Assembly: GCA_013151025.1 (NCBI GenBank)
Contig: JAADJC010000057.1
Span: 2,530-66,529 of the forward strand
Direction: 5' to 3'
DNA from: Acidobacteriota bacterium
GTDB taxonomy: Bacteria > Acidobacteriota > Holophagae > Thermotomaculales > Thermotomaculaceae
Length of the DNA stretch: 64,000 nt
The notes beneath the pieces are model-generated. The model was given only the letters and a program-made list of their open reading frames with translations, did not search any database and was not told the DNA's origin. Below, in pieces: positions 17,266 to 21,958 of the stretch (positions are counted from its first letter, which is position 1; every line of letters begins with the position of its first letter). The position numbers were made by a program, and so were the translations under genes.

Positions 17266-18051
17266 TCACGGTGCCAACGGCACCACATTTTCCCGCAACC
17301 GGTTGAAGAAAGAAACGGCTTCTTCGTAGTCCCGGCCACGGATGACATGGCGCATAAATTCCATCCGGCTGATAACCCGCTCCAACTGCTTTATGGAATG
17401 GGGGTTGAACAGAATTTCCGCCAGCAGGTAGTCGTCTTCGGACAAAAGTCCGGTGGCAATTTCACGATGTTTCTTGAAAGTGGTGCCTGGTACCACGTCT
17501 TTGTCCATACATGCCGCAAACACCATTGTGGACACGAAGGGCAACGTCAAGGAGTACGCCATCATCCGGTCATGCTCATCGAATGAATAATCGAAGATGG
17601 AAAGCCCCTTTTCTTCAAAGAATCCACGAAAAAATGCGGCTGAACCGGGATCGGACTCATGGATGATGACGGCGGATTCTTCGTTCAGGGCGCGGATGTT
17701 GGCAAATGTGGGGCCGAACATGGGGTGGATGGAAACAAATTGACGCCCGCACCGGGAATAGAATTCCGGCAATTCCCCTTTTACCGATGTAATGTCACAC
17801 AGAATACAGTTTTGCGGCAAAATTTCCTTCACAGATTGAAAAACAGGGATGGTTTCTTTCAATGGAACAGCGTTGATTAAGAGTTCCGGCGCGAAATCTT
17901 CCAATTCATCAAGGGTTTCCAGCTTCTTCACTCCTTTGATTTTTTCCACCCGGCCTGGAATCGGGTCAAAGGCGTGAACGGTGTGGTGCACAGCCAGTTC
18001 CCGTGCCAACCAGCTTCCCATGTTGCCGCAACCGAGAATCGCGACTCTCAC
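17266..18051 (-). CDS. tyrA: Prephenate dehydrogenase
   Basis: Oxidises prephenate to 4-hydroxyphenylpyruvate for tyrosine. 261 residues: the NAD-binding start VRVAILGCGNMGSWLARELA, DITSVKGELPEFY, the conserved SIHPMFGPT and a helical C-terminal half with [11 protein letters not shown]. No ACT or chorismate mutase domain is fused. The GTG at 18051 is chosen because it overlaps the pheA stop as GTGA. Last gene of aroF-aroA-pheA-tyrA, under the Phe/Tyr leader. Confidence 0.88.
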   Translation of the reverse strand: MRVAILGCGNMGSWLARELAVHHTVHAFDPIPGRVEKIKGVKKLETLDELEDFAPELLINAVPLKETIPVFQSVKEILPQNCILCDITSVKGELPEFYSRCGRQFVSIHPMFGPTFANIRALNEESAVIIHESDPGSAAFFRGFFEEKGLSIFDYSFDEHDRMMAYSLTLPFVSTMVFAACMDKDVVPGTTFKKHREIATGLLSEDDYLLAEILFNPHSIKQLERVISRMEFMRHVIRGRDYEEAVSFFNRLRENVVPLAP

Positions 18052-19109
18052 AGCACCGCCCCCCGTTTGTAACAACCGAGAAAACGAAAGCGGCTGGTTT
18101 TTTCCCGAACATCTTTCAACACTTTCTGAACCGCGTTATCCCGGTCGTTTCCCAGAAAGTCCAGAAAAAAAACATAGTTTCCCGGACGGCTTCCCATGGG
18201 TACCGATTCAATCCGGGTAAGGTTGATACCCTCCTTCGCAAATGCCTCCAGAATCCCGAACAACGCTCCCGCCTTGTGGGCGGTGGAAAACACGATGGAG
18301 CATTTATCCCCCGGTTTTGCCGCAGCGTTCCCGGAAAGCACCAGGAACCGGGTGACGTTGTCCGGGTGGTCTTCCACTTTTTCTTTAATCACTTCAAGGT
18401 GGTAGAGTTTCGCGCAGGATTCCCCGGCAATGACCGCGGTTCCGCCGGGGCGTTCCCGAAACAGCATTTCCGCCGCCCCGGCGGTGTCGTAGAAGGGCCG
18501 CCCTTCCAGCTTGTGCCGGGTGAGAAACCCCCGGCACTGGGCAAGGGCCTGGGGATGGGAAACCACCACTCGAATATCCCGGTAGTCGGTTTCCGGAAGC
18601 GCCAACAGGAAGTGATGCACCGGAAGCAGAACCTCTCCCACCACGTGAACATTCCGTGTTGCCATCAGTTTGTTAACCTGGGAAACCATTCCCCCCAGCG
18701 AGTTTTCCACCGGAACAATGCCGTAATCCAGAACGCCCGCTTCTACCCCGTCAAATACTTCCGCAAATGATTCCATGGGAATGGATGCCATTCCCGACTG
18801 AAATCGCAGGGCCGCAGCCTCGCTGTTGGCACCATGCTCTCCCTGAAACCCCAGAAGGGGCCGGCCCGCTTCCTGGAGCTTCCGGCTCTCCGCCATGACA
18901 ATGGAGAGCAGGGACCGGCTGAATTCCGGCGTTATCTGCCCATTCGCATACGCCGCAGCAGCCTGCAGAACGGCTTTTTCCCTTTCCTCGTCCAGCACTT
19001 CGTTTTTGAATTTCCGGGATGTCAATGCCAGTTCCATCCGCCGGTTCAAGAGTGCCAGCACCTCGAGATCAATTCGGTCAATCTGTTTTCTTACGCCTTC
19101 CAGGTTCAT
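18048..19109 (-). CDS. pheA: Chorismate mutase / prephenate dehydratase (P-protein)
   Basis: Bifunctional phenylalanine enzyme of 353 residues. Residues 1-85 are an AroQ chorismate mutase (VRKQIDRIDLEVLALLNRRMEL). Residues ~87-270 are the prephenate dehydratase with LGFQGEHGANSEAAAL, GIVPVENSLGG and the catalytic TRF in DNVTRFLVL. The C-terminal ACT domain (GALFGILEAFAKEGINLTRIES) should bind Phe for feedback inhibition. Start and stop overlap aroA and tyrA by four bases each, so translation is coupled. Confidence 0.95.
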   Translation of the reverse strand: MNLEGVRKQIDRIDLEVLALLNRRMELALTSRKFKNEVLDEEREKAVLQAAAAYANGQITPEFSRSLLSIVMAESRKLQEAGRPLLGFQGEHGANSEAAALRFQSGMASIPMESFAEVFDGVEAGVLDYGIVPVENSLGGMVSQVNKLMATRNVHVVGEVLLPVHHFLLALPETDYRDIRVVVSHPQALAQCRGFLTRHKLEGRPFYDTAGAAEMLFRERPGGTAVIAGESCAKLYHLEVIKEKVEDHPDNVTRFLVLSGNAAAKPGDKCSIVFSTAHKAGALFGILEAFAKEGINLTRIESVPMGSRPGNYVFFLDFLGNDRDNAVQKVLKDVREKTSRFRFLGCYKRGAVL

Positions 19110-20389
19110 TTCCAGGCCCCCTTCCCTTTGGATTCCAATTTAATCTTCGCGCCAATTCGCACCAAATCCTCAAAAAAACCAGGATAGGATTTGTCCACAC
19201 ATTCTGCTTCATCAATTTCCACAGGACCGTTGGCATTCAACCCGGAAACTGCCAGCGCCATTGCGATCCGGTGGTCACCTGCCGCCGACACATACCCCCC
19301 TGACAACATCCCGCCAACAACGGTGACAGCGTCATCTGTCACTTTTACATTTGCGCCAAGTCTTCCGAATTCCCGCTTCAATACCCTTGCCCGATCACTT
19401 TCTTTGAATTTAAGCCGGGATGTTCCTGTGATAATCGTTTCCCCATTGCAATGGACCGCCAATGCCACCAGCGCAGGAACCATGTCAGGATATTCAGTTA
19501 CATCAAATTGAAATCCATCCAGATGATCCCGGGAAACCGTCACTGAGTCACCGGAAATAGAAACAGATGCCCCGGCCTGTTCCAGTACATTGAGAATTGT
19601 CCGGTCACCCTGAAGGGAATCCTGAGAAAGTCCTGTCACCGTTACCGGGCCGCCGATGGCTCCGGCAACAAATAAAGCTGTTGCCGCTGACCAGTCTCCC
19701 GGCACAGTAAACTCCGAACAGTGAAGCCGCTGATGCCCCGGTGAACGGAATATCAGAAGTTCCTCTTCCTCTACCTGCCAACAGATACCAAATGACTCCA
19801 GAACTGACAGGGTCATATCCACGTAAGGACGGCTTGCAAGGCCGGAAACCCGGATTTCGCTGTTTTCAGGACAGCCTGGCAAGGCAATGAGCAGACCGCT
19901 CAGAAACTGAGAAGTTACTGTACCTTCTACGTCAACCTTTCCGCCGTGGAGCGGGCCGTTGATATGAACCGGGGGAAGGTTATTTTTCGACTCAAAGGAC
20001 ACACCAAGCTGGCGGAAAGAGTTTCCCATCATTCCAACGGGCCTGTGACAAAGTGTCCCCGAAGCTTCAATAATCACCGAAAACGGAAGCCTTGCCGCAA
20101 CAGGGGCGAACATCCGTAAAGAAAGCCCGGATTCACCAGCATTGAGGATGTTTCCGGGATCATGACAACCGGGGCGAATGGTCACATTCTTCCCTTTTCT
20201 GTCAACATCCGCTCCCAGATCAGCAGCCAATTTCAAAGACACATGGCCATCGTCTGACAGAGATGGATTTTGAATGATTGTTTCGGTATCCGAAAGTACC
20301 GCGCAGGCTACCACCCGTTGCATGAACGACTTGGATGCAGGCGCATGGACCCTACCCGAAACCATCCCCGGGGAAACGCTACCACGCAT
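19106..20389 (-). CDS. aroA: EPSP synthase
   Basis: 3-phosphoshikimate 1-carboxyvinyltransferase, 427 residues. [15 protein letters not shown] is the substrate loop; [15 protein letters not shown] corresponds to the LGNAGTxxR motif but has Glu-Ser in place of Ala/Thr; RLKFKESDR and [11 protein letters not shown] are conserved. The changed NAGESG residues deserve a look because this loop binds the phosphate and affects inhibitor sensitivity, although GES is seen in some natural enzymes. It overlaps aroF by 11 bases and pheA by ATGA. Confidence 0.94.
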
Positions 20390-21269
20390 ATTCCCTCACT
20401 CTTCCCTTTTCAGATCCTTCCAACGCAATTTCCTTTCCAGCATGCACATCGTTTTCATGGATTGTCCCATTCAGTGCATCTTTCAAGCGGTTGACATCAG
20501 CCATCAGGCTGTCGAACTGCTCCGGCAAAAGTGCCTGGGGGCCATCGCTCATTGCATGTTCCGGGTCATGATGAACCTCCACCATCAAACCGTCCGCACC
20601 GACAGCCACTGCTGCCATTGCCATAGGTTGAATCAGTTCCACACGCCCTGTTCCATGCGTCGGATCCACAAAAACCGGCAGGTGAGACAGTTCTTTCATT
20701 GCCGGTACCGCACTCAAATCCAGCGTGTTCCGTGTCCATGGTTCAAAGGTTCGAATCCCCCGTTCACAGAGTATGACATCAGGGTTTCCGGCATCCAGAA
20801 TGTATTCTGCACAATTCAGCCATTCGGCATAGGTTGCGAACATTCCCCGTTTCAACATCACTGGTTTTCCCACCTTTCCAATCTCCTTCAACAGCGAAAA
20901 ATTCTGCATATTCCGCGCTCCCACCTGCAATATGTCTACGTACTCACTGACCCATCCCACGTCCCGGGTATCCAGCACCTCGGTAATCACCGGCAGGCCA
21001 GTCTCCGTCCTCGCCTTTGCAAGTATTTTCAAGCCCTCCAGCCCCAGCCCCTGGAAAGAGTACGGAGAAGTTCTGGGCTTGAACGCGCCGCCCCGAAGTA
21101 ACCCGGCACCCGCACGCTTCACTGCCCGGGCAATAGTCAGCGTCTGCTCTTCACTCTCCACACTGCACGGCCCTGCAATAATCGTCAAATCCTGCCCGAT
21201 CCTGAGCTCACCGACCCGGATCACGGTTCGGGAACCATCCATCCTTCCCGCCAGTTTCAGATGATTCAT
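20379..21269 (-). CDS. aroF: 3-deoxy-7-phosphoheptulonate synthase (KdsA-like class)
   Basis: First enzyme of the shikimate pathway, joining PEP and erythrose 4-phosphate. The 296-residue protein belongs to the short AroA-beta/KdsA-like type: [51 protein letters not shown] and VDPTHGTGR are all present. No fused ACT or mutase domain is seen, so flux control may rest on transcription, consistent with the attenuator directly upstream. GGGGGAAAGG lies before the ATG. Confidence 0.94.
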
Positions 21270-21286: not shown

Positions 21287-21322
21287 AAAAGAAAAAGGGC
21301 CATGAATTTTCATTCACGGCCC
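21287..21322 (-). terminator. Attenuator terminator upstream of aroF
   Basis: On the minus strand GGGCCGTGAAT and ATTCATGGCCC form an 11-base stem (one G-U) around a GAAA loop, followed by TTTTTCTTTT. It ends about 18 bases before the aroF start, leaving room only for the ribosome binding site. This fits a rho-independent attenuator (strands 3 and 4). Confidence 0.85.
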
Positions 21323-21326
21323 ATTA

Positions 21327-21363
21327 CAAAAAATGGACCGTGCGGCTTATCACCGCACGGTCC
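21327..21363 (-). terminator. First leader hairpin (pause/terminator)
   Basis: On the minus strand GGACCGTGCGG and CCGCACGGTCC form a perfect 11-base stem with a seven-base loop, followed by ATTTTTTG. Its downstream arm (CACGGTCC) can instead pair with the upstream arm of the next hairpin (GGGCCGTG), giving the antiterminator expected of ribosome-mediated attenuation. Confidence 0.75.
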
Positions 21364-21389
21364 GAAAACCTTACACTAACGGCGACAAC

Positions 21390-21455
21390 CTACCTGTTAA
21401 AATAAAAATAATAAAAGTAAAACTGTCTGCCAAAAGTGCTGTTCACCATCTTCAT
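21390..21455 (-). CDS. Phe/Tyr leader peptide of aromatic operon
   Basis: A 21-codon frame starting MKMVNSTFGR and continuing QFYFYYFYFNR before TAG. Eight consecutive codons are TTT/TAC/TAT (Phe or Tyr), nine aromatic residues in all. It sits just ahead of two mutually exclusive hairpins and then aroF-aroA-pheA-tyrA, exactly the genes whose products are Phe and Tyr. Ribosome stalling on these codons when charged tRNA-Phe or tRNA-Tyr is scarce should favour the antiterminator. An in-frame ATG four codons upstream is an alternative start. No Shine-Dalgarno is visible and the -10 box is 7 bases away, so it may be read from a leaderless transcript. Confidence 0.85.
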   Translation of the reverse strand: MKMVNSTFGRQFYFYYFYFNR

Positions 21456-21462
21456 GGCGAGA

Positions 21463-21490
21463 AGCATACCATACAACAGAACAAAGTCAA
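21463..21490 (-). promoter_or_regulatory. Promoter of aromatic operon
   Basis: Minus-strand TTGACT (21485-21490) and TATGCT (21463-21468) separated by 16 bases. Transcription would begin at or within two bases of the leader-peptide ATG. Confidence 0.6.
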
Positions 21491-21521
21491 AAAAATCAAA
21501 GAAGTAGGCGTTGGGACAGGA

Positions 21522-21660
21522 CGGCGCAGAGCGCCGAATGTTAAATGTTAAATGAAGGAAAACAAGGAAAAAGAGGTCAACTCCCTATCCCTGTTTTTGT
21601 CACTCATCACCCTTCACCCATTACTTCTTTTGTCACCCGTCACTTCTTTTGTGTTTTTTC
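21522..21660. repeat. Hairpin with heptamer arrays
   Basis: Perfect hairpin CGGCGC-AGA-GCGCCG (21522-21536), then AATGTTA units (21537-21554), then after a purine-rich stretch a second array of TCACCCT/TCACCCA/TTACTTC-like seven-mers (about 21600-21655) reaching the 3' end of the next minus-strand gene. Confidence 0.65.
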
Positions 21661-21923
21661 AGAACGACCCGTATTGCAATCCAGGGTATCAGGAAGAAAA
21701 TAAATATGATAATTTTCAGAAAAGCCGTTCCATAATAATACATCAGAACAAATTCGTGCTTTGATATACCAAACATCATCGAATGGGCCTGGAAAGCTGC
21801 ATCTCCTGCCACCATGAATGTCAGCAGAGATACAGCTAAGAGGACAACAGAATACCAGAAACAGCGAATCAGAATTTCAGCAAGATAATCAAGGGTGGCT
21901 GAACCATTAGTTGAATTTATCAT
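21633..21923 (-). CDS. Small membrane protein, DUF6868-like
   Basis: 96 residues with two membrane helices (ILIRCFWYSVVLLAVSLL and LKIIIFIFFLIPWIAI). The middle part FGISKHEFVLMYYYGTAFLK and the closing IPWIAIRVV resemble the DUF6868 family of unknown function. The ATG at 21923 is preferred since GGAGG precedes it; an ATG twelve bases upstream overlaps that site. The C-terminal basic residues are encoded by DNA that merges with the heptamer array. It lies between a c-di-GMP enzyme and the aromatic operon. Confidence 0.6.
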   Translation of the reverse strand: MINSTNGSATLDYLAEILIRCFWYSVVLLAVSLLTFMVAGDAAFQAHSMMFGISKHEFVLMYYYGTAFLKIIIFIFFLIPWIAIRVVLKKHKRSDG

Positions 21924-21958
21924 TTTCTCCTCCATTATGAATTAATTCTGCCGTTTTA

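Follow-up and report, generated by a model that had tools for sequence, protein, structure and literature searches.

A predicted leader-peptide attenuator with mixed Phe/Tyr codons and two serial terminators upstream of an acidobacterial aroF-aroA-pheA-tyrA operon

The window examined here, a 64,000-nt stretch of the genome of an Acidobacteriota bacterium, carries on its minus strand an aroF-aroA-pheA-tyrA operon whose gene ends overlap. Immediately upstream (21490-21287, minus strand) lie a promoter, a short leader ORF and two hairpins, H1 and H2, in that order (Table 1), which raises the question of whether, and by what wiring, a ribosome on the leader could decide if the operon is transcribed. 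An earlier note, made from the letters of this DNA, had proposed ribosome-mediated attenuation by Phe and Tyr, a prediction that receives strong comparative support from the family. Sequence comparison and modelled folding suggest that the region is very likely a ribosome-mediated transcription attenuator, one that responds to charged tRNA-Phe and tRNA-Tyr and governs all four genes of the operon. The 21-codon leader with eight Phe/Tyr codons in a row described in the note was found at 21455-21390, both hairpins with their U-tracts are present after it, and the leader region folds with a z-score of -8.4 (0/200 dinucleotide shuffles were as stable). A second DAHP synthase gene, also TIGR01361, is located elsewhere in the genome (L002:1327-2142, contig C117), 60 nt behind another gene and with no space for an attenuator; it may supply unregulated flux.

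Table 1 Features of the leader region, the operon and related loci (window positions unless a locus is named).
Feature	Position	Strand	Evidence or property
-35 hexamer TTGACT	21485..21490	-	promoter scan, 9 of 12 with extended -10
-10 hexamer TATGCT, extended	21463..21468	-	ends 7 nt before leader ATG
Leader ORF MKMVNSTFGRQFYFYYFYFNR*, 21 codons	21390..21455	-	ORF translation; length equal in seven genomes
Segment 1, GGCAGACAG, leader codons 9-11, just before Phe/Tyr codons	21423..21431	-	pairs with segment 2
Regulatory codons, 8 consecutive Phe/Tyr (FYFYYFYF)	21399..21422	-	codon-run scan of window and genome
Segment 2, GGTTGTCGCC, from last base of stop codon	21381..21390	-	pairs with segment 1 or 3
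Segment 3, GGTGATAAGCC, inner 5' arm and loop of H1	21344..21354	-	pairs with segment 2 (antiterminator)
H1 (3:4), first intrinsic terminator stem-loop	21335..21363	-	12 bp, 5-nt loop in all seven genomes
Segment 4, 3' arm of H1	21335..21346	-	can pair with segment 5
U-tract of H1, ATTTTTT	21328..21334	-	follows H1
Segment 5, 5' arm of H2	21312..21322	-	can pair with segment 4
H2, second intrinsic terminator stem-loop, 11 bp	21297..21322	-	compensatory changes
U-tract of H2, TTTTTCTTTT	21287..21296	-	follows H2
aroF-like DAHP synthase, first operon gene	20379..21269	-	TIGR01361, 397.6 bits (cut-off 267.75)
aroA, EPSP synthase	19106..20389	-	TIGR01356 above cut-off
pheA, chorismate mutase-prephenate dehydratase with ACT domain	18048..19109	-	PF01817, PF00800, PF01842
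tyrA, prephenate dehydrogenase, divergent	17266..18075	-	PF02153; under NCBIfam cut-offs
Predicted Trp-leader attenuator before trpE of G007, LVIRFENNFSNCKQSGWWWCVKLKSL*, WWW, 12-bp terminator	L144:10272-10412 (G007:C74)		
Phe/Tyr-rich leader and terminator upstream of DAHP synthase	L063, L080, L081, L099, L084, L112, L116, L073, L083, L098, L101, L041, L091		

Seven genomes were compared, comprising the source genome (G000), three congeneric relatives and three relatives from a second genus. All seven retain the 21-codon leader, an eight-codon aromatic run at codons 12-19, an H1 of 12 bp with a 5-nt loop, H2 and the gene order of the operon, while the stem sequences differ between the two genera; in a fourth second-genus genome a contig end cuts the element, the end of H1 and the whole of H2 still being present. 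Leader residues 2-8 diverge widely between the genera, and Phe and Tyr are freely swapped within the run, which is 8/8 Phe/Tyr in the source genome and carries a Trp in one of the seven. Aromatic run and stem covariation, on whose survival in close relatives the proposal had been staked, are both kept. Across all frames of the 2.6-Mb genome there is a single run of at least seven Phe/Tyr codons, the one in the leader; it is likewise the only run of seven in the window (none expected from shuffles). Since the reversed control pattern gave three chance matches per genome, the run by itself is weak rather than decisive evidence. The GRQ/GGQ motif of the peptide is conserved alongside the run, which would fit a functional small peptide with incidental hairpins, but the GRQ/GGQ codons are RNA segment 1, conservation does not extend to the remaining residues and hairpin covariation is strong; we regard this explanation as barely plausible.

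Upstream of the leader ORF, the promoter scan identified a promoter-like site, TTGACT-16-TATGCT, directly before the ATG. TTGAC(A/T) occupies the equivalent -35 place in six of the seven genomes, and the gap between the -10 hexamer and the ATG is exactly 7 nt in 7/7. With the -10 ending so close to the ATG, the transcript is predicted to begin at the AUG or within a few bases of it, and the leader mRNA, if translated as proposed, is probably leaderless, in keeping with the "nearly leaderless" peptide of the earlier note. A REP-like dispersed element (GGCGCnnnGCGCCGAATGTTAAATG) is found at 21520-21562, just upstream of the promoter, and similar copies are present at six other places in the genome.

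The pairing segments follow the classical 1:2 / 2:3 / 3:4 scheme, in which H1 (-24.7 kcal/mol) is 3:4. Segment 1, with the consensus GGC[A/G]GACAG, occupies leader codons immediately ahead of the aromatic run. Segment 2 (GG[C/T]TGTCGCC in genus 1 and GGGCTGTCTGC in genus 2) starts no more than a few bases from the stop codon, and segment 3 reads GGTGAT[A/C]AGCC in genus 1 and GCAGACAGNCN in genus 2, where it repeats the sequence of segment 1. In all seven genomes 1:2 pairs at 8/8 or 9/9 positions (p <= 0.02 against shuffled post-stop sequence) and 2:3 at 10/10 or 11/11 (shuffle p <= 0.011 per genome). In the source genome, GGTTGTCGCC and GGTGATAAGCC pair 10/10 with one bulged A, and this antiterminator and H1 are mutually exclusive. 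The wiring originally put forward was therefore half right. It recognised the 2:3 pairing but cast it as a further switch rather than as the primary antiterminator, and it overlooked segment 1 (GGCAGACAG), which makes the antiterminator respond to a stall; the pairing of the H1 3' arm with the H2 5' arm, which it took for the 2:3 versus 3:4 choice, does exist (8/8) but is too distant from the ribosome to act as the sensor.

Compensatory changes are seen at 6 of the 12 pairs of H1 and at 4 of the 11 pairs of H2, with 97% of the H2 cells paired. Taken jointly, the two stems have 98.8% of cells paired and ten pairs with a double change, a covariation above all 500 shuffles and every slid control, although the seven sequences represent only two clades, which means that in essence a single divergence accounts for the compensatory changes. 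Tandem terminators are common, and a small gene (DUF6868, 21633-21935) is encoded upstream in the same orientation, raising the idea that H1 and H2 are ordinary terminators of that gene and the leader ORF fortuitous. However, the promoter, the leader and segments 1 and 2 separate the DUF6868 gene from the hairpins; among the relatives, this gene was seen only in the examined region of G002, while the element goes with the aro operon in 7/7 genomes; and the aromatic run is kept while the remaining peptide drifts. This origin of the hairpins is very improbable. Equally, a metabolite or tRNA riboswitch would leave the aromatic codon run and its position relative to segments 1 and 2 unexplained. 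No Rfam family, Phe leaders and T-box included, was matched at the gathering score. The sole match in a search relaxed to E <= 5, which speaks weakly for a riboswitch, was to the Moco family (19.8 bits, below its gathering score of 36; E 0.026), an identity we rejected as sub-threshold. We give the riboswitch reading hardly any credence.

To follow the leader-peptide switch during transcription, growing transcripts of the seven genomes were folded with a 30-nt stretch masked as the ribosome, the footprint sizes being assumed. In these computations the position of the ribosome selects the fold, a stall leaving segment 2 free and a ribosome at the stop codon covering it. With the A site at codons 2-6 of the run, the ribosome sits on segment 1, and 2:3 forms while the 3' arm of H1 is still unfinished; a stall at codon 2 gives only weak 2:3 in G000 and G003. 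A stall on the last codon of the run frees segment 1 and leads to termination in the simple model. When the ribosome was placed at the stop codon or left out, H1 and then H2 were formed. The full-length RNA mostly favours H1 plus H2 at equilibrium; antitermination must therefore be under kinetic control, a usual feature of attenuators.

These foldings are consistent with the following mechanism. With plentiful Phe and Tyr, the ribosome would reach the stop codon and cover segment 2, or depart and allow 1:2 to re-form; H1 (3:4) would then fold, and RNA polymerase would stop at H1 or H2. When Phe or Tyr is scarce, the ribosome would stall in the run and cover segment 1, and segment 2 would sequester segment 3 ahead of synthesis of the H1 3' arm, preventing H1. 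The freed 3' arm could subsequently pair with the 5' arm of H2, and the second terminator would be opened as well. Termination would be the default state without translation.

The last of these steps depends on the 4:5 helix, CACGGTCC:GGGCCGTG, which pairs 8/8 with one G-U in the source genome and is 100% paired, 8/8, in all seven, with double changes in four of its eight columns. In the source genome and the three second-genus relatives (G004, G005 and G007), masked folding prefers 2:3 plus 4:5 from the point at which the 5' arm of H2 is out until H2 is complete, while 4:5 is weak in the model of the genus-1 relatives G003, G001 and G002. Resemblance between the H1 and H2 stems within a genus is limited to the outer 7-8 bp, and these change together between the genera, a pattern better accounted for by selection on 4:5 than by stem duplication, though as an argument from sequence, not a proof. 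Rather than a sensor, 4:5 is probably a second, downstream relay, able to open H2 as well. Conceivably, only H1 is regulated as in a classical attenuator, H2 being an insulated back-up and the cross-pairing a by-product of similar stems: 1:2/2:3/3:4 is enough to explain the sensing, the pairing of 4:5 in single genomes is marginal against shuffles (p 0.03-0.05) and partly implied by the similar stem bases, and little 4:5 is formed in the model of three genomes. Against this, antitermination at H1 would be useless if H2 stayed closed, and the co-changing similarity, fully paired, is confined to the outer 7-8 bp of the stems. We consider control of H1 alone unlikely, though a good deal less so than the rival explanations discussed above.

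The amino acids to which the attenuator would respond can be compared with the biosynthetic genes of the family. In profile searches, TrpE (PF04715) and IGPS (PF00218) were absent from eight of nine family genomes, including a single-contig genome, the exception being G007; HisG (PF01634), sought with a His leader in mind, was absent from 9/9. Controls for these searches were positive in 13-14 of 14 reference genomes. The family is likely to be auxotrophic for His and Trp, judging from its gene content. As TrpE and IGPS are missing, the chorismate-derived amino acids of the other members should be Phe and Tyr only, matching a leader with Phe and Tyr codons alone. G007 is also the only member with a Trp codon in the run of its aro leader (QFYFWFYFYFN), so that the leader Trp codon and the presence of trpE and trpC coincide in G007 only; resting on one case, this correlation is suggestive only. 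The trpE contig of G007 is genuine, as evidenced by a guaB-motA-exbD-spoIID-surE order syntenic across the family, and trpC is located on contig C75.

Upstream of trpE, G007 carries a predicted Trp-leader attenuator of its own (Table 1). As in the aro leader, a segment at the leader stop pairs with the terminator loop and 3' arm, and masked folding responds alike, stalls on the first two Trp codons giving the antiterminator, and no ribosome or one at the stop giving the terminator. Unlike the aro leader, it has three Trp codons, a single terminator and a Shine-Dalgarno-like GGAGG before the start. Two such switches, one for Phe/Tyr and one for Trp in a single relative, are documented by comparison in one family.

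The logic proposed here is that of trp/pheA attenuation. In E. coli, the attenuators of pheA (pheL) and pheST consist of a Phe-rich leader ORF, the 1:2/2:3/3:4 alternatives and an intrinsic terminator before the operon. These elements are common to both systems, whereas the acidobacterial leader has alternating Phe and Tyr codons, two serial terminators, a probable leaderless start, a four-gene operon headed by DAHP synthase and no Rfam match. The enterobacterial his attenuator likewise passes one choice along several stems through a chain of alternative helices; there the terminator is in the last stem only, while here H1 also has a U-tract. A leader RNA whose 5' end coincides with the leader-ORF AUG, and which may act as a leaderless mRNA, has been described for trpLE(G) of Sinorhizobium meliloti (PMC7298713), an alphaproteobacterial Trp system; in the present case the start is predicted and two terminators follow. 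Attenuators have also been predicted ahead of tyrA-containing supraoperons with most Phe and Tyr genes in the Merino data (PMC1173090), which, in the part of that source considered here, are terminator/antiterminator listings without a described Phe/Tyr leader peptide or a member of the Holophagae. A survey from 2010 assigned almost no function to acidobacterial attenuators (PMC2965389). On the basis of an open-literature search, the mechanism is classical, and what appears tentatively to be new is the acidobacterial lineage, the mixed Phe/Tyr leader, which would govern the entry enzyme of the shikimate pathway, the two serial terminators and the probable leaderless start.

How far such leaders extend was assessed with a covariance model run over 396 genomes of the phylum, in which strong matches (118-158 bits) were confined to the family. 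Weaker matches (<= 32.5 bits) turned out to be ordinary terminators at gene ends. The leader of the family was not found before DAHP synthases from other families of the class (L019-L038). A broader search of 77 DAHP synthase loci drawn from a public genome set revealed a Phe/Tyr-rich short ORF followed by an intrinsic terminator at 14 loci, one of them that of G007 from the family itself, versus 3 of 400 control windows (Fisher p ~1e-9, the loci being phylogenetically non-independent). Carriers include Clostridia, a fusobacterium, a spirochaete and a Gemmatimonadaceae MAG, and the leader loci tested outside the family gave no Rfam match. From this survey, control of this step by aromatic leaders appears to be common and for the most part unannotated. 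Because their peptides are unlike the leader of the family, those of other phyla probably arose independently.

Taken as a whole, we put forward a wider proposal, to which we assign a chance slightly short of even: that one stalled ribosome opens two serial intrinsic terminators via a helix chain (1:2, 2:3, 3:4 = H1, 4:5 and H2) on a leaderless mRNA, that the leader codon set is evolutionarily tuned to the aromatic amino acids made (Phe/Tyr in Trp-less lineages, Phe/Tyr/Trp in one with trpE and trpC), and that such attenuators arose repeatedly before DAHP synthase across phyla. Direct tests are feasible for the mixed leader, for the relay between tandem terminators and for the agreement of leader codons with pathway content.

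Two further observations were made at DAHP synthase loci. Oscillibacter and its relatives have a conserved AEYRYFSFTYFFGKAYFGL-type leader before the gene. Two MAGs labelled as archaeal (an uncultured archaeon, L039:4828-4917, and a Micrarchaeota, L044:4810-4920) have an F/Y(W)-rich short ORF between trpA and aroF, together with a TATA-like box and a T-rich stretch, possibly representing leader-peptide control in archaea or misbinned contigs.
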